Positions 36,300-60,270 of a stretch of 64,000 bases of DNA are shown one piece after another. Position 1 is the stretch's first letter, and every line of letters begins with the position of its first letter. Source of the stretch: Candidatus Accumulibacter sp. ACC003 (GTDB lineage Bacteria; Pseudomonadota; Gammaproteobacteria; Burkholderiales; Rhodocyclaceae); NCBI RefSeq assembly GCF_907163085.1, contig NZ_CAJQTX010000004.1, positions 204,956 through 268,955 on the forward strand, written 5' to 3'. The notes below the pieces were generated by a model. That model ran no database searches. It saw only the letters and a program-made list of their open reading frames with translations, and was not told the DNA's origin. The position numbers and the translations under genes were made by a program.

Positions 36300-36555
36300 G
36301 CGCAGCCGCCGCCCCGCAGCCCTGACGCATGACCTCCCCGAATCGACAGCACTTGCCGGTTACGCCCACTTTCGCCGCCGAGGCGGCCAGATGGGGGTTG
36401 GCTAGCGGCAAGGGAGCGCTTGCGGCGCGGGGGTTTGGTGTTCAGTCAGTGGGACAGGAGAGGTCGAGGGAGCTCCGTTACGATCGCCAGGCGAGCCTTT
36501 CCCGGCGCGGGGTGCGCCGCGCTTGGGAAGATGTGTTGGGCAGGCCTGGGCAAGG

Positions 36556-38076
36556 TTATTCGAGTTGCAGCAGGAACGGTTCGGCGAGAAGCAGACGCAG
36601 GCGTGCTGGGTCAAGCCAGGGCGCAGCACAGGAATTACGGATGAAGGCGATGGCGCCGCGCACACCGAGTTCTTGATACAGGTTGCGTAACTGCCGGGTG
36701 AAACGTGCCAGGGTATTGAACACATGCGCCAGGCGCATGAGGAGGTGATAGCCTTTCATGGCATTCCAGTCGAGGGCAAAGGCATGCTCGTAGTGGTAGC
36801 CCTGATGTTTTTCGACGAGGAAGCCCGCTTCGATGCCCCAACGGTGGCGGGCACCGAGGTTGCAGCGCTCATGGACATTGTCTTGTCTGAGCGGTTGGCT
36901 GGAGAGCCAGGCGTGGCGCGATGTTTCGGTGACGGTCCTGGCCTGTTCATCGATCTTTTCCCAGCTTTCCTCACAGACCACCAGGTTCAGCTTGAGACGC
37001 TGACGCCCGTTGGCCGCGAAGGCGTAGTCGATGTCGTTGACCCAGCTGAAGTGTTGTCGGCGCCTTCCCCAAGCGCGCTGCACGGCTTGTGGCTTCAGGG
37101 CGTGGAGTGCGCGGAACTCCTGCCAGACCGTGGACAAATCCTTGTCCTTAAGCACGATCATGAACTGCCAGTGGGCGCGCAAGCAGCGCTGCATCACCGG
37201 CCCGTTGGCGTAAAGGCCGTCGAGCAGGAGCAGGATCGGCAGGCGGGGGAACAGCGTCTTGAGCCGGTCGCTCAAGCGCACAAAGCCGCGCAGCTCGCAG
37301 TCCTGCTTTTGCGCTTCGGTATCGCCCAGCGCGTGTTCGAGGAACTCGCTGAGCAGTGGGACGACCAGGCCGTTGTGGAAAGCCAGGCTGGCCTCGAGGA
37401 CGTAGACGAAGTACTGGGTGTGGCGGGTTTCCTCCTTGCCGACGGTGCGCTGGAGGAGTTCCTCCGCCCAGAGGGTGTCGCCGGCGACCTTCTGCGAGCC
37501 GTCGATGGCGATGGGGTAGCAGTGGTTGATCAGATAGCGGCGGAAGCTCTTGCCGCGGATCAGCCGCTTCACCAGATCGACGTGGGCCTGCTCAAGGTGG
37601 TCAAGGTCGATGTCGCGCAGCAGCCGAAACAGGGTGTCGGCGTGTGGTAGGGTCTCGATCTCCGGGAACAGCAGGTGGAGGTTGGCCATGAACTGGGGAC
37701 GGGATATTTCGCGGTTGGTCTCGCGCCGAGAGGAGAACTGAAAGACGAACATCAGCAGACCGTAAAGCAGCAGCGCGGTCAGCTTGTGGCGGCGCTTCCT
37801 GGGGTCTCTCGGGTCGGGAATTTGTTCCAGTTGCTCGAGCAAGGCGGGTAGCTCTTTGCGCAGGAGACGCGTCTTTTTGCTCACGGCGTCCTCGCGGGCC
37901 TCCCTTTCCTCGCCGACGGTCGCGAAGGCTGAGCATCGGTTGGGCAGAGAAGTGGGGGAGTGGAGGACTTGTCCACTCGCGCGCCGTTTCGCGTTCAGTG
38001 CCTTTTCCTGCCGTTTCTTCTCTGAGCGCAGCTCCTTGAGGGCAGCGCGTGTCGGGCGACGGCAGGGTTTGCTCAT
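36556..38076 (-). CDS. IS4-superfamily DDE transposase
   Basis: Start at 38076 (MSKPCRRPTRAALKEL), whose ATG overlaps the TGA of the DruA-like gene (ATGA), giving 506 residues. The large frame extending further upstream is an antisense/shifted reading and is rejected. A basic N-terminus is followed by IPDPRDPRKRRHKLTALLLY. Catalytic acids are likely in AIDGSQKVAG (D), LLLDGLYANG (D) and RWGIEAGFLVEK (E, with the R-x3-E-x6-K of the YREK signature). It should catalyse excision and insertion of this element. Confidence 0.88.
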   Translation of the reverse strand: MSKPCRRPTRAALKELRSEKKRQEKALNAKRRASGQVLHSPTSLPNRCSAFATVGEEREAREDAVSKKTRLLRKELPALLEQLEQIPDPRDPRKRRHKLTALLLYGLLMFVFQFSSRRETNREISRPQFMANLHLLFPEIETLPHADTLFRLLRDIDLDHLEQAHVDLVKRLIRGKSFRRYLINHCYPIAIDGSQKVAGDTLWAEELLQRTVGKEETRHTQYFVYVLEASLAFHNGLVVPLLSEFLEHALGDTEAQKQDCELRGFVRLSDRLKTLFPRLPILLLLDGLYANGPVMQRCLRAHWQFMIVLKDKDLSTVWQEFRALHALKPQAVQRAWGRRRQHFSWVNDIDYAFAANGRQRLKLNLVVCEESWEKIDEQARTVTETSRHAWLSSQPLRQDNVHERCNLGARHRWGIEAGFLVEKHQGYHYEHAFALDWNAMKGYHLLMRLAHVFNTLARFTRQLRNLYQELGVRGAIAFIRNSCAAPWLDPARLRLLLAEPFLLQLE

Positions 38077-38978
38077 GGCCGGGAGCTCCCAGGGGCGGCA
38101 CACAGCCGGTCGCGACAATCGGCGCTCAGCGGTTTGAGCCACACCTGGCGGGGCGTGCTGCGATACGACTGGCCGGGGCGGGCCAGCCCGCGCCCGCTGG
38201 TTGCCCCGAGCAACTGCCAACCGGCCGCGCGGTAACAGGTGCCGGTATAGTGACGAGGATCGACGAAAGTCTCCAGCAACAGGGGCTCGAAGCCCCAGTG
38301 ATCGAGCCAGTCCGCGCGTGCGCGGCGCGCGAGTTGTCCGAGCACATGACTGGCCAGATGCGGCACCCGGACGTGGGGAAAGATCAGGAAGCGGCTGTTG
38401 TTCACCACCCGCGCCAGGTTCTCGCGGCGGGCCTGGGCCGTCCAGCCGATCCAGCGGTCGCGCACGGCGACCGCGCGGGCAGCGCCGGCCAGCAGGACGC
38501 TGCCGAGCCGCCGGTCGCCCGCCGTGATGAAGTAGCGCAGGCGGTAGCCGAAGGCCCCCTGGAAACCCAGTGGGTGCCAGCGCGCCACCAGCGCATCCCA
38601 CTGCGCCACCAACGCCGCGTCGCGAACGACTTCCAGGCAGACCGGTGCGAGTGCCGACAGGGCGCAGTGCACGGGAAGCTCCCCGGTGACCGTATCTACG
38701 GGTGCCGCGGGCGGCGCGCAACGGCGTGCTGACGACGGCCTTATCGCCGGCAGTGTCAGCAGCCCGGCCGCCTGCAAACGCTCCAGAAACTCCAGGCAGG
38801 CGCTGATCTTCGCCGTCCCTGTCAGAGTGGTCCACCCCAGGTGCTCGCAGACCGTCGCCGCCAACTCCTTGCGCGCCAATCCCGGCAGCCACGCCACCGT
38901 CCCGCACACCTCGGCGATCTCCGCGGCGCTGAATACGCGACCGCAGTGCACCCACTCCTCTTCGCTCGTTGCAACCAC
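38073..38978 (-). CDS. DruA-like DUF4338 protein encoded by the insertion sequence
   Basis: Start chosen at GTG 38978, seven bases after GGAGG, giving about 301 residues. It shows the DUF4338 pattern seen in DruA of the Druantia anti-phage system: AVRDRWIGWTAQ, VNNSRFLIFPHVRVPHLASH, LLLETFVDPRHYTGTCYRAA and GWQLLGATSGRG. The same motifs appear in the domain fused to the ISAs1 transposase at 53900-54523. The N-terminal region (about 1-110) resembles a helix-turn-helix-like segment with CGTVAWLPGLARKELAATVC. Its role in transposition is unknown; a DNA-handling accessory function is inferred from strict coupling to the transposase. Confidence 0.8.
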   Translation of the reverse strand: MVATSEEEWVHCGRVFSAAEIAEVCGTVAWLPGLARKELAATVCEHLGWTTLTGTAKISACLEFLERLQAAGLLTLPAIRPSSARRCAPPAAPVDTVTGELPVHCALSALAPVCLEVVRDAALVAQWDALVARWHPLGFQGAFGYRLRYFITAGDRRLGSVLLAGAARAVAVRDRWIGWTAQARRENLARVVNNSRFLIFPHVRVPHLASHVLGQLARRARADWLDHWGFEPLLLETFVDPRHYTGTCYRAAGWQLLGATSGRGLARPGQSYRSTPRQVWLKPLSADCRDRLCAAPGSSRP

Positions 38979-39175
38979 CACGATACCTCCGGCTGAAACG
39001 TGGACCAATGACCCTCCACCTATCCTGCCAGAAGTCCCCCCGGCTGTCTAGCTCCCTTGTGCGAAACCTTTTTTGCCTGCCCACCGCAACGCCTTGCCAG
39101 TACTGGGCTGGCGCAGTCATGCTTCAGCGCTGGCCGCCCCGGCCGCCATGCGCAAGTCGCCATGGCCAGCTGCAG

Positions 39176-48418: not shown

Positions 48419-48568
48419 AAAATACATGAGTGCATGAACTGACACCGCTGATGTGACATGCGGATTACCTGCGCCGCTGATCAAGCGCCATTCATAAACA
48501 CCCCGCGCCGTCATTGCGAGCGCAGCGAACAAACCAGAAATTGCCACGTCAGCCAACGAAGTCAGCCC

Positions 48569-49603
48569 ATGACAAACCACCCGCACGACACCGGCTACAA
48601 ACTTCTGTTCTCGCACCACCGCGTAGTGGAAGACCTGTTGCGCGGGTTCGTCGGTGAAGATTGGGTAGAAGGACTCGACTACAGCACTCTTGAAAAAGTC
48701 AGCGGCAGCTATATCAGCGACGACCTGCGCGACCGAGAAGACGACGTTATCTGGCGCATCCGTCACCACACCGAATGGATCTACATCTACCTACTGCTCG
48801 AATTCCAGAGCACGGTAGACCCCTGGATGGCCCTGCGCATCATGGTCTATACCGGCCTGCTCTACCAAGACCTGATCAAGAGCGGAGAAGTCAAACCCGG
48901 CCAAAAGCTTCCTTCCGTCTTCCCGCTCGTGCTCTACAACGGCCGCCAACACTGGACTGCCGCACGCGACGTCAGCGAACTTATTGAAAACCCGCCGGGC
49001 AGCCTCAAACGCTACCATCCCACCCAACGCTACTTCCTGATTGAAGAGGGCACCCTGGAAGAAACGGCGTTGGCCGACACCGACAACACCGTAACCAGCA
49101 TCATCCGGCTGGAAACCAGCGCACTACCCGAAGATGTGCGGCGAGCGGTATCCTCACTACAGGCACGGTTGCGCCACCCAGAATACGCCAGCCTCAGACG
49201 CGCATTCGTGGTCTGGATCAACCGCATCGTACTCAGGCGGCTGATGCCAAGCCAAGAAATCCCGGAAGTCAACGAACTACAGGAGATAGACACCATGTTG
49301 GCGGAACGTGTAGAAGAATGGACAGAGCAATGGAAACGAGACGGCCTACAACAAGGCCTACAACAAGGCCTACAACAAGGCCTACAACAAGGCCTACAAC
49401 AAGGCCTACAACAAGGCCTACAACAAGGCAAGCTAGAAGGCGAATCAGCCGTTCTGCAACGCCAACTCGCCCGCCGTTTTGGCCCGTTATCGCCCGAAAC
49501 CCATGCTCGCCTGACCCATGCCAGCCTCGCTCAACTTGAACAATGGGCCGACAACATCCTCGATGCCAACACGCTGGAAGACGTGTTCAAAGTCAGGAAC
49601 TGA
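48569..49603 (+). CDS. Rpn family recombination-promoting nuclease with DUF4351 tail
   Basis: Start at ATG 48569 (MTNHPHDTGYKLLFSHHRVV), giving 344 residues; the upstream in-frame part is repeat DNA. The domain matches the PF04754-like Rpn fold: DDLRDREDDVIWRIR with acidic residues and YLLLEFQSTVDPWMALRI carrying E-x-Q. It then has YTGLLYQDL and FPLVLYNG. Seven L-Q-Q-G repeats (12 bp each) form the linker. DUF4351 follows (LQRQLARRFGPLSPETHARL, LEQWADNILDANTLED). This is a different subfamily from the 41584/43539 genes but shares the linker and tail design. Confidence 0.88.
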   Translation: MTNHPHDTGYKLLFSHHRVVEDLLRGFVGEDWVEGLDYSTLEKVSGSYISDDLRDREDDVIWRIRHHTEWIYIYLLLEFQSTVDPWMALRIMVYTGLLYQDLIKSGEVKPGQKLPSVFPLVLYNGRQHWTAARDVSELIENPPGSLKRYHPTQRYFLIEEGTLEETALADTDNTVTSIIRLETSALPEDVRRAVSSLQARLRHPEYASLRRAFVVWINRIVLRRLMPSQEIPEVNELQEIDTMLAERVEEWTEQWKRDGLQQGLQQGLQQGLQQGLQQGLQQGLQQGKLEGESAVLQRQLARRFGPLSPETHARLTHASLAQLEQWADNILDANTLEDVFKVRN

Positions 49604-49805: not shown

Positions 49806-50044
49806 CAGCCCTGACGCATGACCTCCCCGAATCGACAGCACTTGCCGGTTACGCCCACTTTCGCCGCCGAGGCGGCCAGATGGGGGTTGGCTAGCGGCAA
49901 GGGAGCGCTTGCGGCGCGGGGGTTTGGTGTTCAGTCAGTGGGACAGGAGAGGTCGAGGGAGCTCCGTTACGATCGCCAGGCGAGCCTTTCCCGGCGCGGG
50001 GTGCGCCGCGCTTGGGAAGATGTGTTGGGCAGGCCTGGGCAAGG

Positions 50045-51565
50045 TTATTCGAGTTGCAGCAGGAACGGTTCGGCGAGAAGCAGACGCAGGCGTGCTGGGT
50101 CAAGCCAGGGCGCAGCACAGGAATTACGGATGAAGGCGATGGCGCCGCGCACACCGAGTTCTTGATACAGGTTGCGTAACTGCCGGGTGAAACGTGCCAG
50201 GGTATTGAACACATGCGCCAGGCGCATGAGGAGGTGATAGCCTTTCATGGCATTCCAGTCGAGGGCAAAGGCATGCTCGTAGTGGTAGCCCTGATGTTTT
50301 TCGACGAGGAAGCCCGCTTCGATGCCCCAACGGTGGCGGGCACCGAGGTTGCAGCGCTCATGGACATTGTCTTGTCTGAGCGGTTGGCTGGAGAGCCAGG
50401 CGTGGCGCGATGTTTCGGTGACGGTCCTGGCCTGTTCATCGATCTTTTCCCAGCTTTCCTCACAGACCACCAGGTTCAGCTTGAGACGCTGACGCCCGTT
50501 GGCCGCGAAGGCGTAGTCGATGTCGTTGACCCAGCTGAAGTGTTGTCGGCGCCTTCCCCAAGCGCGCTGCACGGCTTGTGGCTTCAGGGCGTGGAGTGCG
50601 CGGAACTCCTGCCAGACCGTGGACAAATCCTTGTCCTTAAGCACGATCATGAACTGCCAGTGGGCGCGCAAGCAGCGCTGCATCACCGGCCCGTTGGCGT
50701 AAAGGCCGTCGAGCAGGAGCAGGATCGGCAGGCGGGGGAACAGCGTCTTGAGCCGGTCGCTCAAGCGCACAAAGCCGCGCAGCTCGCAGTCCTGCTTTTG
50801 CGCTTCGGTATCGCCCAGCGCGTGTTCGAGGAACTCGCTGAGCAGTGGGACGACCAGGCCGTTGTGGAAAGCCAGGCTGGCCTCGAGGACGTAGACGAAG
50901 TACTGGGTGTGGCGGGTTTCCTCCTTGCCGACGGTGCGCTGGAGGAGTTCCTCCGCCCAGAGGGTGTCGCCGGCGACCTTCTGCGAGCCGTCGATGGCGA
51001 TGGGGTAGCAGTGGTTGATCAGATAGCGGCGGAAGCTCTTGCCGCGGATCAGCCGCTTCACCAGATCGACGTGGGCCTGCTCAAGGTGGTCAAGGTCGAT
51101 GTCGCGCAGCAGCCGAAACAGGGTGTCGGCGTGTGGTAGGGTCTCGATCTCCGGGAACAGCAGGTGGAGGTTGGCCATGAACTGGGGACGGGATATTTCG
51201 CGGTTGGTCTCGCGCCGAGAGGAGAACTGAAAGACGAACATCAGCAGACCGTAAAGCAGCAGCGCGGTCAGCTTGTGGCGGCGCTTCCTGGGGTCTCTCG
51301 GGTCGGGAATTTGTTCCAGTTGCTCGAGCAAGGCGGGTAGCTCTTTGCGCAGGAGACGCGTCTTTTTGCTCACGGCGTCCTCGCGGGCCTCCCTTTCCTC
51401 GCCGACGGTCGCGAAGGCTGAGCATCGGTTGGGCAGAGAAGTGGGGGAGTGGAGGACTTGTCCACTCGCGCGCCGTTTCGCGTTCAGTGCCTTTTCCTGC
51501 CGTTTCTTCTCTGAGCGCAGCTCCTTGAGGGCAGCGCGTGTCGGGCGACGGCAGGGTTTGCTCAT
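50045..51565 (-). CDS. IS4-superfamily DDE transposase (element copy 2)
   Basis: Protein identical in the translated sequence to that of copy 1 (506 residues, start MSKPCRRPTRAALKEL, acids in AIDGSQK, LLLDGLYANG and RWGIEAGF). Its ATG overlaps the stop of the DruA-like gene. Two intact copies mean the element could still be active. Confidence 0.88.
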   Translation of the reverse strand: MSKPCRRPTRAALKELRSEKKRQEKALNAKRRASGQVLHSPTSLPNRCSAFATVGEEREAREDAVSKKTRLLRKELPALLEQLEQIPDPRDPRKRRHKLTALLLYGLLMFVFQFSSRRETNREISRPQFMANLHLLFPEIETLPHADTLFRLLRDIDLDHLEQAHVDLVKRLIRGKSFRRYLINHCYPIAIDGSQKVAGDTLWAEELLQRTVGKEETRHTQYFVYVLEASLAFHNGLVVPLLSEFLEHALGDTEAQKQDCELRGFVRLSDRLKTLFPRLPILLLLDGLYANGPVMQRCLRAHWQFMIVLKDKDLSTVWQEFRALHALKPQAVQRAWGRRRQHFSWVNDIDYAFAANGRQRLKLNLVVCEESWEKIDEQARTVTETSRHAWLSSQPLRQDNVHERCNLGARHRWGIEAGFLVEKHQGYHYEHAFALDWNAMKGYHLLMRLAHVFNTLARFTRQLRNLYQELGVRGAIAFIRNSCAAPWLDPARLRLLLAEPFLLQLE

Positions 51566-52467
51566 GGCCGGGAGCTCCCAGGGGCGGCACACAGCCGGTC
51601 GCGACAATCGGCGCTCAGCGGTTTGAGCCACACCTGGCGGGGCGTGCTGCGATACGACTGGCCGGGGCGGGCCAGCCCGCGCCCGCTGGTTGCCCCGAGC
51701 AACTGCCAACCGGCCGCGCGGTAACAGGTGCCGGTATAGTGACGAGGATCGACGAAAGTCTCCAGCAACAGGGGCTCGAAGCCCCAGTGATCGAGCCAGT
51801 CCGCGCGTGCGCGGCGCGCGAGTTGTCCGAGCACATGACTGGCCAGATGCGGCACCCGGACGTGGGGAAAGATCAGGAAGCGGCTGTTGTTCACCACCCG
51901 CGCCAGGTTCTCGCGGCGGGCCTGGGCCGTCCAGCCGATCCAGCGGTCGCGCACGGCGACCGCGCGGGCAGCGCCGGCCAGCAGGACGCTGCCGAGCCGC
52001 CGGTCGCCCGCCGTGATGAAGTAGCGCAGGCGGTAGCCGAAGGCCCCCTGGAAACCCAGTGGGTGCCAGCGCGCCACCAGCGCATCCCACTGCGCCACCA
52101 ACGCCGCGTCGCGAACGACTTCCAGGCAGACCGGTGCGAGTGCCGACAGGGCGCAGTGCACGGGAAGCTCCCCGGTGACCGTATCTACGGGTGCCGCGGG
52201 CGGCGCGCAACGGCGTGCTGACGACGGCCTTATCGCCGGCAGTGTCAGCAGCCCGGCCGCCTGCAAACGCTCCAGAAACTCCAGGCAGGCGCTGATCTTC
52301 GCCGTCCCTGTCAGAGTGGTCCACCCCAGGTGCTCGCAGACCGTCGCCGCCAACTCCTTGCGCGCCAATCCCGGCAGCCACGCCACCGTCCCGCACACCT
52401 CGGCGATCTCCGCGGCGCTGAATACGCGACCGCAGTGCACCCACTCCCCTTCGCTCGTTGCAACCAC
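51562..52467 (-). CDS. DruA-like DUF4338 protein (element copy 2)
   Basis: Same protein as in copy 1 except for one visible substitution in the N-terminal region (EGEWVHCG instead of EEEWVHCG). The GTG start after GGAGG is chosen as for copy 1. The motifs VRDRWIGW, NNSRFLIFP and LLLETFVDP are kept. Confidence 0.8.
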   Translation of the reverse strand: MVATSEGEWVHCGRVFSAAEIAEVCGTVAWLPGLARKELAATVCEHLGWTTLTGTAKISACLEFLERLQAAGLLTLPAIRPSSARRCAPPAAPVDTVTGELPVHCALSALAPVCLEVVRDAALVAQWDALVARWHPLGFQGAFGYRLRYFITAGDRRLGSVLLAGAARAVAVRDRWIGWTAQARRENLARVVNNSRFLIFPHVRVPHLASHVLGQLARRARADWLDHWGFEPLLLETFVDPRHYTGTCYRAAGWQLLGATSGRGLARPGQSYRSTPRQVWLKPLSADCRDRLCAAPGSSRP

Positions 52468-52621
52468 CACGATACCTCCGGCTGAAACGTGGACCAATGA
52501 CCCTCCACCTATCCTGCCAGAAGTCCCCCCGGCTGTCTAGCTCCCTTGTGCGAAACCTTTTTTGCCTGCCCACCGCAACGCCTTGCCAGTACTGGGCTGG
52601 CGCAGTCATGCTTCAGCGCTG

Positions 52622-52709
52622 GCGAATCAGCCGTTCTGCAACGCCAACTCGCCCGCCGTTTTGGCCCGTTATCGTCCGAAACCTATGCTCGCCTGACCCA
52701 TGCCAGCCT
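52622..52709 (+). pseudogene. Rpn remnant, middle piece between two insertion sequences
   Basis: Continues the duplicated Rpn fragment (ESAVLQRQLARRFGPLSSET, then YARLTHASL) from the target duplication of the 2816-bp element to the 10-bp duplication atgccagcct of the ISAs1 element. Confidence 0.9.
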
Positions 52710-54617
52710 CACGGTAAATTTGTTCTCGTGCCGGGATCAAGGTGATACGTGGCCTGTAGAATTTTTGGTCATGCGCAGGTAGTCGAAGACCAATCGGATG
52801 TTGCGGTTGAGGTGGCGCATTTTTTCGGAAATGCTGGTTTTGCCGTCGGAGAAGTGGTGCAGGATTCCGACGGCAAAGCGGCGCAGGCGTGACATGTTCT
52901 CGGGTCCGTAACCAGTCCGAATACGGCTACGGTCCTCGTCGTAGTTCCAGTCGATGACGTAGTGACAGCGGTTCTCTATCGACCAATGGCCGCGATTGAT
53001 GGCGAGGATTTGCTGTGGGCTGGCCTGTTCTGGAGGGCGACTGGTGATCCCGAGAGCGATTTCGTGCGTCCGCTTGCCGCTCTTCTTGTGCAGCACTTCG
53101 CGCTCGATCAAGAACACCTGGCCGACATACGGGAAGTCGAGATAGGCGTTGAGGGCATTGCTGCACCAAATACGCCGAGTCTCGATCCGACCATGGTCAG
53201 GTGGCGAAACCGCCACGAAGTCTGCCCCCTTCCGATCCTGGAAGAGGAGCGCGATATCGGCTTGCAGTGTTGGCTGATTGCCTTTGACCGTGAAGTGATA
53301 GTGCGCCTTGCGCTCCACCAGGTAGGTCGCCAGCTTGCGCTGTGTCAGTAGCGCGTCGGCGGTGATGTCCTTGCCCTGAATATCGATCGCATCGAGCAGG
53401 GGTATGAACATCCCGATTTCATTGGTCTGCTTGAGCTCGTCCCCGCCATTTACGGGCAAGGTGCCGACTTTTTTTGGGTGTGACACACGCCGGTCTGATG
53501 CCCGACCACGCTCATGATGTGTGCTTGCTGACCGTGCTCGTCATGGGCATTGCGCATGGTCTTGCCGTCGACCGCCAGACTGGGGTCGTCTTGAGCATAG
53601 GCCTTGTTCCACTGCTGACACGCTTGATCGAGCGCCATGGGATCGACACGGATCAGGACGTCACGAATGATGAACTCGCTGGGTACGCGGTAAACGCCCT
53701 TCTCGCGACGACAGCGGAAACGCTCGCGTGCTTTCGGTGTGAGGTCTTTGGCCCACCCGGCGATGGCTTTGTAGCCCCGCATTCCGCACAAGACCGCCGC
53801 CGTGGCGATGGCCAGAACGGCAGGAAGGGGGTGACGCCTTCCTTGCGCGCGCCGCGGGTCGGCGATGCCGGCAAAGAAATCGGGAAGCGTGCGCATCTGT
53901 TCGGCGGTGAGCATCATCCTGGGCGCTCCTGTGCGATAGCGGGGGTTGAGTATCGAGCGGGAAAGTTGGCCGCGAGCGTCCGCCTGCAAGGGGCGAACAA
54001 AGACAACTTTGGGCGACGTCGGGTGGGCGCTGTAGCCTTCTCGGGTGCGGCGAAAGCCTTGCGTCAGCCCCAGAGGCGTCCAGTTCGCGGCGCGATAGAC
54101 GGTCCCCTGGAAGCGCGAGGGGTCCACAAAGGTCTCCAGCAGTAACAGCGGCTTCCCGAAATGCGCCTGCCAATCCTCGGCGACCCGTCGCTCGCACAGC
54201 GAGAGCACCTTGGAGCCGAGATTGGGGTAATGCCAATCGGGAAGGATCAGAAAGCGACTGTTGTTGGCGACCAGGCCCAAGCGATCGTACTGATGCCGAT
54301 AGTCCCAGCCGATCCAGCGGTCACGAACGCCGCATTTCCAGGCCGCCGCAGAGAAACTCAGCAGGGCCGTCCACTTTTCGCCGTAGGTGGCCACGTACCA
54401 AAGCGTGTGCCCGATCTTCGCCAGGTCGCCCAGGTAGTGATGCTCTGCCATCAACTCCCGATAGCGAGCCTCTTCGCTCTTGCCCACCAAGCGAACACGC
54501 AATGCACCAAGAACGCTTTCCATGCGCCATTTATACGGACTTCCGGCGCAGATGTCCAGGGGGAAGAACTAACTGCTTGATTGCCCGTGCGTTGCCTGAG
54601 AGGACAAATCCACCCTG
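52710..54617 (-). mobile_element. ISAs1-family element with DruA-transposase fusion (1908 bp)
   Basis: Imperfect inverted ends (cacggtaaatttgttctc at the left; gaggacaaatccaccctg at the right). A perfect 10-bp target duplication atgccagcct is at 52700-52709 and 54618-54627, matching the uninterrupted site at about 49519 in the neighbouring intact Rpn gene. It holds one minus-strand gene. Confidence 0.92.
52737..54523 (-). CDS. DruA-like (DUF4338) domain fused to ISAs1 transposase, with a -1 frameshift
   Basis: Residues 1-200 form a DUF4338 domain: CGVRDRWIGWDYRHQ, ANNSRFLILPDWHYPNLGSK, LLLLETFVDPSRFQGTVYRA. From about 203 the ISAs1 transposase follows: RTLPDFFAGIADPRRAQGRR, LAVDGKTMRNAHDE (D), DAIDIQGKDITADALLTQRK (D) and RGHWSIENRCHYVIDWNYDE (E). 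The frame changes at 53468-53474, where the minus strand reads A AAA AAG. A -1 shift joins HTQKK to VGTLPVNGGDELKQTNEIGM. It could be programmed or a lesion. The first frame alone ends at 53450. Confidence 0.85.
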
Positions 54618-54705
54618 ATGCCAGCCTCGCTCAACTTGAACAATGGGCCGACAACATCCTCGATGCAAACACGCTGGAAGACGTGTTCAAAGTCAGGAAC
54701 TGAAG
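54618..54705 (+). pseudogene. Rpn remnant, right piece
   Basis: Completes the duplicated fragment (ASLAQLEQWADNILDANTLE, then DVFKVRN stop). It is followed by the same flank as the intact gene (gaagcgaaaccgtggtctgt), showing that the duplication included that flank. Confidence 0.9.
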
Positions 54706-54727
54706 CGAAACCGTGGTCTGTCCGTTC

Positions 54728-55160
54728 GCCGTAAAGCAGTAAGTCTAGCGGGTTGAAGTCCCGTCCGGGGAGTTGTCCGTACGCCCCGGTAGCATGAGGA
54801 AGCGGCGCTGTGGTAACACGGGGTCGTGAGTTTCCCAACAGCAAGAGAGCAGACCGTAACGCAAGTGAACCTATGTGTAGCCTCGTAAAACGAATTGGGA
54901 AAGCCGCCCCTGTGGGCAGAAAGGGAAGGCCGTTGGATCGGCGCTGGAACAACGGAAGTGGCGTCAATCGACTCACGGGGCAGCACGGTCGGCATGTTCT
55001 CGAAGATTTACTGCCCAGTGCTGGAGACCCGTCTCCGGGGGTAGGGAGGCCGCCGACGGCTGCGCGCAACGACCCAAACGCGACATTTCGCACGCATCTG
55101 CGTGAATGGCAGCTGATTGAGGCAAACCGACCATCATTTGGGGAGTGTTGAATACGTGAA
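54728..55160 (+). other. unexplained segment, possibly the 5' part of a group II intron
   Basis: No gene is apparent. agcgggttgaagtcccgtcc, aacgcaagtgaacctatgtg and gaattgggaaagccg resemble conserved stretches in domain I of bacterial group II introns. No reverse transcriptase frame or domain V hairpin could be identified, so a remnant is the most that can be said. Confidence 0.35.
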
Positions 55161-55185
55161 TGCAAGACCTGACACCTTTTGTTGC

Positions 55186-56884
55186 GTAACCGTTCACACC
55201 CCCTTAACAAACGCCGCCAACGCCATGCTTTTGCGGCATAATTCGTGACCATGACGACCACACGATAGCCACGCCGAGATGCGCCTGAGCAAGCATGATC
55301 TCTTCCAGATGGACGACGAGTGGCTGAAGAAGCTGCCGGCGGAGCTGTTGCTGGAAGTGTCGAAGCGACTGCTGCACGACGTCAAGGAGTTACAGGATCG
55401 GCTGAATCAAAACCCGGCCAACAGCTCGCGGCCGCCGAGTACAAAGGCACCGTGGGAGAAGGGGCGCGAGCCAGCCGGGGAGAACGAAGCGCCAGTCAAG
55501 CCAGGTGCTACAGAAACGGCAGAGAGTTCGGCGCCAGCGCCAGAGACTACGCCGCCGGCGCCAGAGACGTCGCCGCCGGTGACCGAACGTCCATCGCCCC
55601 GAAAAGGCACGGGGAAACCCCCGGGCAGGCAAGCGGGCAGTCCGGGCCATGGTCGCACGCAGAAACTGGTGGTTACTGACAATTGCATGCACCGACCCGA
55701 GACCTGCGCGGTTTGTGGTGGAGCGTTGGCGGAGGAGGCCGAGTCGCAGGCTTACACGGCCTGGGACGAGATCGACATCGCGCCGCCCGTCGAGGGCGCC
55801 ATCGGACTGATGTTCAACGTGACGCGTCACACGCTGCTTGAAGTACGCTGCGCTTGCGGCCACGTCAGCCGTGCGAAGCCCTGGCGGGCGCCGAACGACG
55901 CCCAGTGGGGGAAGGTTGAGCTGGGCGAATGGCGCTTGGTGGGTCCTCGTCTGGCCGGTGTCATCGTTCTGCTCGCGCTGCGAATGCGCCTGTCGCGAGC
56001 GCGTATTCGCGAGCTCCTGCAGGACGTCTTCGACCTGACGCTGAGCACCGGCGTGATCGATGAGACGATCCGGGAAGCCGGCCGTGCCAGCTTCCCGCTG
56101 GAGGACGCCCTGGTGGCCGATATCGTGCAGGTGGCGCAATTGCACGTCGATGAAACGTCGTGGCCGGAAGCCGGCGTGCTGCTGTGGTTGTGGGCGCTGG
56201 TCAGTACCTCTACGGCGCTGTACCTCATCGGCCCACGCACCCGGGAGATGCTCGATAACGCCCTGCAAGACGGCTATACCGGCATCCTCATCAGCGATGG
56301 GTACGTGGTCTACCGGACCTGGGAAAACTGCCTGCGCTGCTGGCCGCACCTGCTGCGCAAGTTGCGGGGGCTGGCCGAATCGAGTGATGGCCGGGTGTCC
56401 CGGGTTGGGCAGGAGATGGAAGGTATCCTGACAGCGCTGATGGACGCCATCTACGCGGCGCGGATCGAGCCGTCGCCGCAAGCCCTGCCCGAGCGCTACG
56501 CCGCCGAGGTCAAACGATTCCGACACCTGTGCGAGGGGCATCAGACGGATGAACATCCGGCCCTGCGCCGTGTCGTGCGCGAATTCCTCTACGACTGGAA
56601 AGTCATCCTGCGTCCTCTCGCGGAGCCCCTGTTGCCGCTCTCCAACAACGCCGCCGAGCAGGCGCTGCGACACTGGGTCATTTCGCGCAACATCAGCCAT
56701 GGCACCCGTTCCGAAGAAGGGTCCCGCGCCTCCGCCCTCTTGGCCAGTGTCATCGAGACCTGCTGCCGCCGCGGCACCTCCGCCTGGCAGTACCTCGGCA
56801 CCGTCATCGCTGCCGCTCGCAAAGGCTTACAGCTTCCCGCTCTCCCCGCTATCCCGGCTGCGGCGTAGGGGAGTGAACGATTAC
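55186..56884 (+). mobile_element. IS66-family element (1699 bp), transposase only
   Basis: Terminal inverted repeats start gtaaccgttcacaccccc (left) and end in the counterpart gtgaacgattac (right). A perfect 8-bp target duplication, tttgttgc, is at 55178-55185 and 56885-56892, the size expected for IS66. It carries the transposase gene alone, without tnpA/tnpB accessory genes, as in the ISBst12-like subgroup. Confidence 0.93.
55279..56868 (+). CDS. IS66-family transposase
   Basis: A 529-residue DDE transposase. The N-terminal NSSRPPSTKAPWEKGRE and GRQAGSPGHGRT segments and a zinc-binding motif (CAVCGGAL, CACGHV) precede the catalytic core. Catalytic acids are likely in LHVDETSWPEAG (D) and LISDGYVVY (D), with E in PLSNNAAEQALRHWVISRN. 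The Ala/Pro/Thr-rich insert near residues 70-110 (APETTPPAPETSPP) is unusual but common in the family. Confidence 0.95.
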   Translation: MRLSKHDLFQMDDEWLKKLPAELLLEVSKRLLHDVKELQDRLNQNPANSSRPPSTKAPWEKGREPAGENEAPVKPGATETAESSAPAPETTPPAPETSPPVTERPSPRKGTGKPPGRQAGSPGHGRTQKLVVTDNCMHRPETCAVCGGALAEEAESQAYTAWDEIDIAPPVEGAIGLMFNVTRHTLLEVRCACGHVSRAKPWRAPNDAQWGKVELGEWRLVGPRLAGVIVLLALRMRLSRARIRELLQDVFDLTLSTGVIDETIREAGRASFPLEDALVADIVQVAQLHVDETSWPEAGVLLWLWALVSTSTALYLIGPRTREMLDNALQDGYTGILISDGYVVYRTWENCLRCWPHLLRKLRGLAESSDGRVSRVGQEMEGILTALMDAIYAARIEPSPQALPERYAAEVKRFRHLCEGHQTDEHPALRRVVREFLYDWKVILRPLAEPLLPLSNNAAEQALRHWVISRNISHGTRSEEGSRASALLASVIETCCRRGTSAWQYLGTVIAAARKGLQLPALPAIPAAA

Positions 56885-59272: not shown

Positions 59273-60270
59273 ATGGACAACCAGACCTCACCCAACGACG
59301 ACTACGACACCCCGTGGAAAGACGCGATCACGCGCTATTTCCCGAGTTCATGGCCTTCTACTTCCCGTCGGCGCACGCAGAAATCGACTGGCAGCAAGCG
59401 CACGTCTTCCTCGACCAGGAACTCGCCCAGATCGTCCAGGATGCCGAACTCGGCAAGCGGCTGGTTGATCGTCTCGTCCAGGTCAGCACCCGCGAAGCGG
59501 GCGAGCAATGGGTCTACATCCACGTCGAAGTCCAGGGACAGCACGACGCCAATTTTCCCGAGCGCCTCTTCACCTACAACTACCGGCTCTACGATCGCTA
59601 TCGCCGCCCGGTTGCGAGCCTCGCCGTGCTCGCGGACGAAGGCGAAAACTGGAAACCGACCCACTTCGGCTACCAACTATTTGGCTGCGAAGTCGGCATC
59701 CGCTTCCCGACCGTCAAGATTCTCGATTACGCTGACCAGGCCGAAGCCCTCCTGGCGGACCCCAACCCCTTCGCCCTGGTTACCGCGGCGCACCTGTTCA
59801 CCCGCGAGACAAAGGGTGACCCCGAGCAACGCTATAGGGCAAAATGGCGGCTGGCCAAGCTCCTCTACGAACGCAACTGGGACAAGCAGCGCATCATTGA
59901 CCTGTTCAGCGTCATCGACTGGCTGATGCGTTTGCCGACAGAACTCGAGAAGCGGCTGATGGACGAAGTCTACACACTGGAAAGGAACGTCACCATGCCC
60001 TACGTTACCTCTGCCGAACGCTTTGGCATCGAAAAAGGATTGCAGCAAGGATTGCAGCAAGGACTGCAACAAGGATTGCAGCAAGGAGAGCAACAAGGCA
60101 TGCAAAAAGGGGAAGCCACCCTCCTGCAGAGCCAACTCGCCCGTCGCTTCGGTACCCTTTCTGATGCCGTCCGCGCCCGACTGGCCAACGCCACAGTTGA
60201 GCAGCTCGAAAGCTGGGCGCTCAACATCCTTGACGCCAAATCGCTGGACGAAGTTTTCGATCAGGGTTGA
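59273..60270 (+). pseudogene. Rpn/DUF4351 gene with an early frameshift
   Basis: Closely related to the gene at 43539. The start MDNQTSPNDDYDTPWKDAIT is in one frame, and FPEFMAFYFPSAHAEIDWQQ onward is in another. One base is missing near 59338 (gctatttcccgag versus gctactttcccgag). The rest, including HVEVQGQHD, four L-Q-Q-G repeats and DUF4351, is intact to the stop at 60270. A sequencing error is possible. Confidence 0.85.

Follow-up and report, generated by a model that had tools for sequence, protein, structure and literature searches.

Insertion sequences of the ISAs1 family generate target duplications of 8–10 bp. A slippery A-run motif is used by the IS3 and IS1 elements, in which the OrfA and InsA products act as brakes on transposition. 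A 2012 paper states that IS1 and IS3 were the only elements for which a transframe product was on record (PMC3281130). The DruA family (DUF4338) is listed as of unknown function in one publication (PMC7251935) and given as a GNAT in another (PMC10853773), and a third reports DruA-like proteins in Synechococcus phages from structure (PMC12774648). In jumbo phages, Mom domains are described as typically fused to restriction-type nucleases (PMC7824862). Here we describe element A, an ISAs1-type insertion sequence in which a DruA domain precedes the transposase. The element lies in a stretch of 64,000 nucleotides, referred to as the window, from the genome of Candidatus Accumulibacter sp. ACC003 (G000; contig NZ_CAJQTX010000004.1, positions 204,956 to 268,955). 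No publication on a link between DruA and transposases or on frameshifting in ISAs1 elements was found in the titles and abstract openings listed; subscription papers and preprints lay largely outside this search, and absence in print is not implied.

Element A is best understood as an ISAs1-type insertion sequence that has moved recently. It occupies positions 52710..54617 of the window on the minus strand, and this extent of 1908 bp is common to the copies in the genome. Its ends are formed by the left terminal inverted repeat CAGGGTGGATTTGTCCTC (54600..54617, minus strand) and the right one CACGGTAAATTTGTTCTC (52710..52727, plus strand). Both flanks carry the 10-bp target duplication AGGCTGGCAT, given as on the minus strand (left copy 54618..54627, read by eye; right copy 52700..52709). 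Among the fetched loci of G000, 23 full-length copies of element A are present, the one in the window included. They comprise 12 distinct sequences, the biggest identical set being nine, and their targets differ. An exact 10-bp repeat, read by eye, flanks 21 of the 23 copies, while one copy has a repeat with a mismatch and one a repeat of 9 bp. The locus L020 (contig C4 of G000, 274000-284000) is a near-identical duplicate of the window region 52200-55300 with the same target duplication. Its flanks are those of the window, indicating a duplicated region and not a separate insertion, and a degraded copy of the second element discussed below, element B, adjoins it. At the locus L040 two copies of element A stand in tandem, with one 10-bp repeat common to both.

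Two open reading frames (ORFs) are found in element A. ORF1 (53450..54523, minus strand) encodes 357 amino acids and ends with SAPCP and a stop codon. Its residues 1–190 (53954..54523, minus strand) constitute the DruA domain, which matches Pfam DruA/DUF4338 (PF14236) over about 190 residues with an E-value of 2.7e-25 and 89.6 bits, above the cut-off of 27. This domain is followed by DDE_Tnp_1_assoc at residues 215–305 (53609..53881, minus strand; PF13808, E 1.4e-20) and by the motif AVDGKT, which we take to be the region of the first catalytic aspartate of the transposase. ORF2 (52737..53486, minus strand) encodes the C-terminal half of an ISAs1 transposase with a DDE_Tnp_1 domain; the ISAs1 model NF033564 scores 135.8 bits on it, above the cut-off of 70, and 50.8 bits, under this cut-off, on the transposase part of ORF1 alone. 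An earlier reading of the window, the original prediction, had placed a DruA-like domain at the N-terminus of an ISAs1 transposase, and both assignments are borne out. It had also taken 52737-54523 for one protein, which was incorrect: the coding sequence is divided between two ORFs, offset by -1, with the slippery heptamer A_AAA_AAG at their overlap (53468..53474, minus strand; A-run 53469-53475). The NF033564 match, the terminal inverted repeats and the 10-bp target duplication are features of ISAs1 membership. The usual layout of the family, which is not defining, is one transposase ORF with no extra domain. Element A departs from it by its two -1-related ORFs and its DruA domain, and is therefore regarded as an ISAs1 variant.

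The junction of the two ORFs reads CACACCCAAAAAAAGTCGG, with the frame-0 codons CAA AAA AAG. A -1 slip on the heptamer gives QKKVGTLPV..TNEI, which aligns with QEKV..SNEI of the canonical ISAs1 transposase of the same genome. By arithmetic the predicted joined product has 595 residues; the relative L054, in which the frame is not shifted, encodes 582 residues from its first methionine. The run of seven A is intact in 22 of the 23 copies of element A in G000, and one copy has six. A scan of genome contigs confirmed at least 456 related stretches, so that the fusion is not confined to this genome. The best 80 of them, which share 56–96% identity with the query, mostly over its residues about 5–356, were combined with the window to give 81 loci. 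Three loci of the scan come from Methylotuvimicrobium buryatense 5G. Records bearing the names of several phyla carry the DruA–ISAs1 fusion; most of these are metagenome bins. The slip site was located in the relatives by alignment and not by the motif. One locus stops short of the site and four have no adjoining ORF2, which leaves 76 ORF1–ORF2 pairs: 72 in the -1 frame, three in the +1 frame and one (L121, with eight A) in frame. The sequence AAAAAAG is present in 69 of the 72 -1-frame pairs, always in the slippery phase X_XXY_YYZ, and in 68 of these 69 a 0-frame stop follows at most 18 codons past the heptamer. Elsewhere in ORF1 the lysine codons AAA and AAG are each used in half of the cases (442 and 443, respectively). 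Seven or more A are found at 66 of the 69 sites. The other three carry C or G before the heptamer (A6G), which indicates that conservation applies to the heptamer and not to seven consecutive A.

Because 69 of the 72 -1-frame pairs keep the heptamer in phase, the 595-residue fusion is best explained as a product of programmed -1 frameshifting. Several observations weigh against it. Four of the 76 pairs lie outside the -1 frame, the heptamer is missing from three of the 72 pairs in this frame (L139, L141 and L158), and neither a covarying hairpin nor an unusual folding energy, and hence no stimulator, was found in the tested stretch downstream of the heptamer. A hairpin at the register suggested by folding (sum 34) was rejected, its pairing not exceeding that of column shuffles (z -1.3); among the 14 registers, sum 39 gave the highest value (z 2.5). 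The folding energies resembled those of control stretches. A downstream stimulatory structure is not always needed for -1 frameshifting. The full product could also arise through slippage of RNA polymerase on the A-run. One extra A yields the in-frame fusion, as in L121, and 66 of the sites have at least seven A; the three A6G sites nevertheless stand in ribosomal phase, as do all 69, and we consider polymerase slippage unlikely. The split ORFs are also unlikely to supply a transposase that works as two separate chains, since the junction is passed in one frame, and thus in one chain, in the unshifted relatives L054 and L200, the latter a plasmid copy from Candidatus Thiodictyon syntrophicum that is broken further on. 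Decay or a sequencing error would explain L139, L141 and L158, the three relatives in the +1 frame and the single G000 copy with six A. It is hardly credible in view of a heptamer common to nearly all -1-frame pairs and kept in 22 copies of G000 at different targets, no more than nine of which are identical. For the family this conservation rules out decay, which may still hold for single copies. In the tree of DruA domains described below, L054 stands outside the shifted clade (99/95), from which it follows that the fusion probably preceded the frameshift. The preference for programmed frameshifting suggests that ORF pairs that could pass for broken transposases may be working frameshift elements.

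The DruA domain appears to belong to the machinery of the element. It is under purifying selection, with a median dN/dS of 0.185 against 0.183 and 0.179 for the two transposase parts (65–71 pairs with dS below 2), and the selection acting on it equals that on the transposase. Among the relatives DruA shows a mean pairwise identity of 0.65, and each transposase part one of 0.66. For this comparison 206 of 400 pairs drawn from 68 loci were kept, pairs with an identity of the C-terminal transposase part outside 0.6–0.985 being excluded.

The window contains a second type of DruA-bearing insertion sequence. Element B (49806..52621, minus strand) has 2816 bp and a 9-bp target duplication, and encodes a separate DruA protein and a transposase. 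A second copy lies at 36317..39132 (minus strand), and 15 full copies, these two included, are present among the fetched loci. The DruA protein (51562..52497, minus strand; 311 amino acids) matches Pfam DruA with an E-value of 2.4e-25. The transposase (50045..51565, minus strand) has 506 amino acids from the ATG at 51565, which overlaps the stop codon of the DruA gene. An IS66-linked DruA gene of G000 likewise overlaps its own transposase gene, by 4 bp. These overlaps suggest that DruA and transposase are translationally coupled in both element types. The N-terminal domain of the separate DruA proteins is predicted to consist of three helices, is also kept in the IS4-type fusion L015 and probably serves for DNA binding. 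As had been predicted, the DruA proteins of elements A and B have VRDRWIGW, NNSRFLI-P and LLLETFVDP in common. The two domains share 43% identity over 169 residues (BLASTP E 2e-34, 116 bits; the best of 200 shuffled controls reached 26 bits), and the similarity survives profile and structural comparison. The same partner domain is thus found once as a separate protein and once as a fusion, the latter requiring the -1 frameshift. The statement that the two transposases are unrelated holds in part. The transposase of element B does not match the ISAs1 model and gives no BLASTP alignment with that of element A (best E 0.33), yet it also carries DDE_Tnp_1_assoc (PF13808, E 4.8e-13), which makes the pair a poor example of unrelated transposases.

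The DruA domain of element A has a predicted GNAT fold, and its closest solved structure is Mom of phage Mu (PDB 8bv8). In VIA-align comparisons Mom is ahead of the other structures by a clear gap for both window domains, the remaining matches being protein and small-molecule N-acetyltransferases, and sequence profiles point to Mom as well. A search of PDB sequences with the DruA profile returned a single match (E 0.12), a short plant protein, which was taken as chance. The residues H29, Y30, R90, S104, D134 and Y143 of the window domain align with H58, Y59, R111, S124, D149 and Y159 of Mom, whose N121 is also among the aligned residues. The residues of Mom were reportedly the subject of a study by Karambelkar and others in 2020. 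Among 57 DruA domains R90 is retained in all, S104 in 55 (threonine in the other two), and H29 and Y143 in 55 each. A number of points speak against this likeness. The hhalign program moves the R90 stretch by seven residues, and the pairs R90/R111 and S104/S124 rest on shared spacing. The window domain reaches 14.8 bits with Pfam Mom (PF25680), the cut-off being 27.1; the DruA protein of element B has no Pfam Mom match at E ≤1, and in plain Foldseek comparison it is closer to the GNAT structure 3owc (1.3e-5) than to Mom (2.2e-5). Proline replaces Tyr30 in five of the 57 domains, among them that of element B and those of three IS4-type fusions. Of the four IS66-linked domains, three have glutamate (L001 and L064) or glutamine (L074) in place of Asp134; glutamate also takes its place in two IS4-type domains (L058 and L165), of which L058 lacks Tyr143 as well. 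In domains with such replacements catalysis may be altered or lost. The phage DruA-like proteins mentioned above and the likeness to Mom may reflect one GNAT group.

The original prediction had proposed a general functional link between this domain and transposases, and the genomic context of DruA genes supports such a link. Across the 5.39 Mb of the G000 genome the DruA profile matches 83 places: 25 element A, 32 IS66-linked, 21 element B, four IS4/Tn5-type fusions and one apart. The places were sorted by frame length, the neighbours being checked only in fetched loci. The DruA load of G000 is unusual; most of the places lie in insertion sequences that are present in several copies and represent four or more kinds. 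Each of the two IS4-type fusions scanned in this genome is encoded as one chain, of 764 and 741 amino acids, respectively. A DruA ORF of 183 amino acids at L018 (14382-14933, minus strand) falls into none of the multi-copy types, and its nearest relative in the tree is the IS66-linked L056. Two samples drawn with the DruA-family profile, and so not biased to element A, contained a match in 17 of 398 genomes at the phylum level and 16 of 274 at the class level, with G000 included in each count. Outside G000 these matches represent 44 distinct DruA genes over the cut-off, after rows of one protein had been merged and hand-sorted: 12 full-length or long Druantia-type genes, seven fragments, six at or near a contig end, 18 transposase-linked genes and one (L177) without a recognised transposase. 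Of the 19 short DruA genes whose flanks are long enough, 18 therefore have a link, defined as fusion to a transposase or adjoining one within the 1.5-kb flank; they stem from 11 genomes and do not count as independent cases. The partners are ISAs1 in ten cases (three each in G249 and G247, one each in G234, G377, G352 and G414), IS66 in three (two in G234, one in G040), IS4/Tn5 in three and ISKra4 in one, with one weak case. The partner of L056 matches NF033517 (IS66, 1.4e-57) and that of L164 matches NF033572 (ISKra4, 1.9e-73); the others were assigned by tblastn with G000 transposases. In the weak case, L070/L216, DDE_Tnp_1 scores 17.6 bits, under the cut-off of 23, and the protein weakly resembles that of element B (7.7e-8). 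At L083 an IS4/Tn5-type DruA fusion sits within an ISAs1-type one.

A tree was built from 49 rows, comprising 44 of the 57 DruA domains (13 rows of the shifted ISAs1 type were thinned out) and five of eight Druantia proteins. The transposon-linked domains form one side of a 100/100 branch that separates them from Druantia, and the domains of the shifted ISAs1 elements form one group (99/95). The DruA domain of element B is not sister to the ISAs1 fusions. Neither the IS66-linked nor the IS4/Tn5-linked domains are one side of a branch, and for each of them two or more changes of partner are required by the starred branches; 13 inner branches of the tree are open, and the count of changes merges gains, losses and swaps.

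We propose that element A is an ISAs1 element that has gained a Mom-like GNAT domain, that its full product is made by -1 frameshifting, and that DruA is a DNA acyltransferase working with the transposase; this reading we consider probable. Ribosomes that slip back one base at A_AAA_AAG would produce the 595-residue DruA–transposase. Those that do not slip would meet a stop within a few codons and release a 357-residue protein with DruA and the transposase N-terminus, lacking the rest of the catalytic domain, which is likely to act as a brake on transposition like OrfA and InsA. DruA may, with less certainty, acylate a DNA base, as Mom does with the N6 of adenine. The transposase would hold DruA next to the DNA through the fusion, and a separate DruA would be held there by its own three-helix domain. 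Such a mark on the element ends, the target or an intermediate could shield the DNA from cleavage or regulate how it is used.

Other roles for DruA have to be considered. The domain could be a module without catalytic activity that binds DNA or flips bases, its Mom fold having been repurposed to help the transposase hold the ends or the target. Fusion and gene overlap keep DruA at the transposase, the separate proteins carry the N-terminal helical domain, and some members of the family have other residues in place of Tyr30 and Asp134, all of which would suit such a module. The retention of R90, S104, H29 and Y143 across divergent domains argues against it, and we regard it as rather unlikely. 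Alternatively, DruA might, like many GNATs, acylate a protein, which could be a host factor or the transposase. The fold and the N-acetyltransferases that fill the remaining structural lists would be compatible with this activity. However, Mom is clearly set apart from these structures for both window domains and is favoured by the sequence profiles, so that protein acylation appears quite unlikely. DruA could, finally, be Druantia defence cargo hitch-hiking on transposons. The 12 full-length or long Druantia-type genes among the 44 sampled would agree with this, as the three that were tested match PADLOC DruA (L201, 2.3e-114; L163, 4.5e-80; L171, 3.6e-115), and L163 lies beside a TniQ gene, perhaps as cargo of a Tn7-like element. 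In contrast, ORF1 of element A matches no PADLOC DruA family at E ≤1e-3, and element B, L001 and L015 reach only 18.1–18.5 bits. Together with the 100/100 branch and the equal dN/dS of DruA and transposase, this makes the cargo explanation very improbable. Among the Druantia-type loci, an ORF with a NurA domain follows the DruA gene at L161 and L201. The DruA proteins of L171, L178 and L213 exceed 1000 amino acids; two of these three also match an AAA ATPase model under its cut-off, and L171 shows weak PADLOC matches to SspF and DndF.

A DNA-modifying partner common to several transposase families is a wider claim, a hypothesis that draws on sequence and predicted fold. It states that in at least four named families (ISAs1, IS66, IS4/Tn5 and ISKra4) the transposase works with a Mom-like enzyme acylating DNA bases at the ends, the target or an intermediate, that this enzyme was gained by or swapped between families several times, and that its dose in ISAs1 elements is set by frameshifting. 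We put it forward tentatively, as a possibility that falls somewhat short of even chances. Mom-like DNA acylation would provide a testable hypothesis for DUF4338/DruA and tie an anti-phage defence protein to insertion sequence biology. Should the modification be real, an epigenetic step would be part of transposition in the DruA-linked families.

Elsewhere in the window, two genes at 48458-49603 and 59314-60270 (plus strand) encode Transposase_31/DUF4351 (Rpn-like) proteins with QQGLQ repeats, the second under the Transposase_31 cut-off.

Element A resembles the ISAs1 family (NF033564) in transposase homology, inverted repeats and 10-bp duplication. The canonical ISAs1 of G000 has one frame of 393 amino acids and no DruA, whereas element A has the N-terminal DruA domain and two frames joined at the heptamer. 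Like IS3 and IS1, whose transposases belong to other families, element A has two ORFs that overlap and are connected through a slippery A-run. Druantia DruA (PF14236) and the window domain are members of the same Pfam family, but the latter covers only positions 50–220 of the 297 profile positions and lies across a long branch. With Mom (PF25680) the window domain shares the GNAT fold and the aligned residues; it differs in its score under the Pfam cut-off and in being fused to a transposase instead of forming a phage gene, and its activity is a predicted one. A further parallel in architecture is provided by the Mom–nuclease fusions of jumbo phages, which like element A combine a GNAT of the Mom family with a DNA-cleaving enzyme, the partner being here a DDE transposase. 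Since the transposase is also a DNA-cutting enzyme, a Mom-like domain attached to it fits the pattern of these nuclease fusions.
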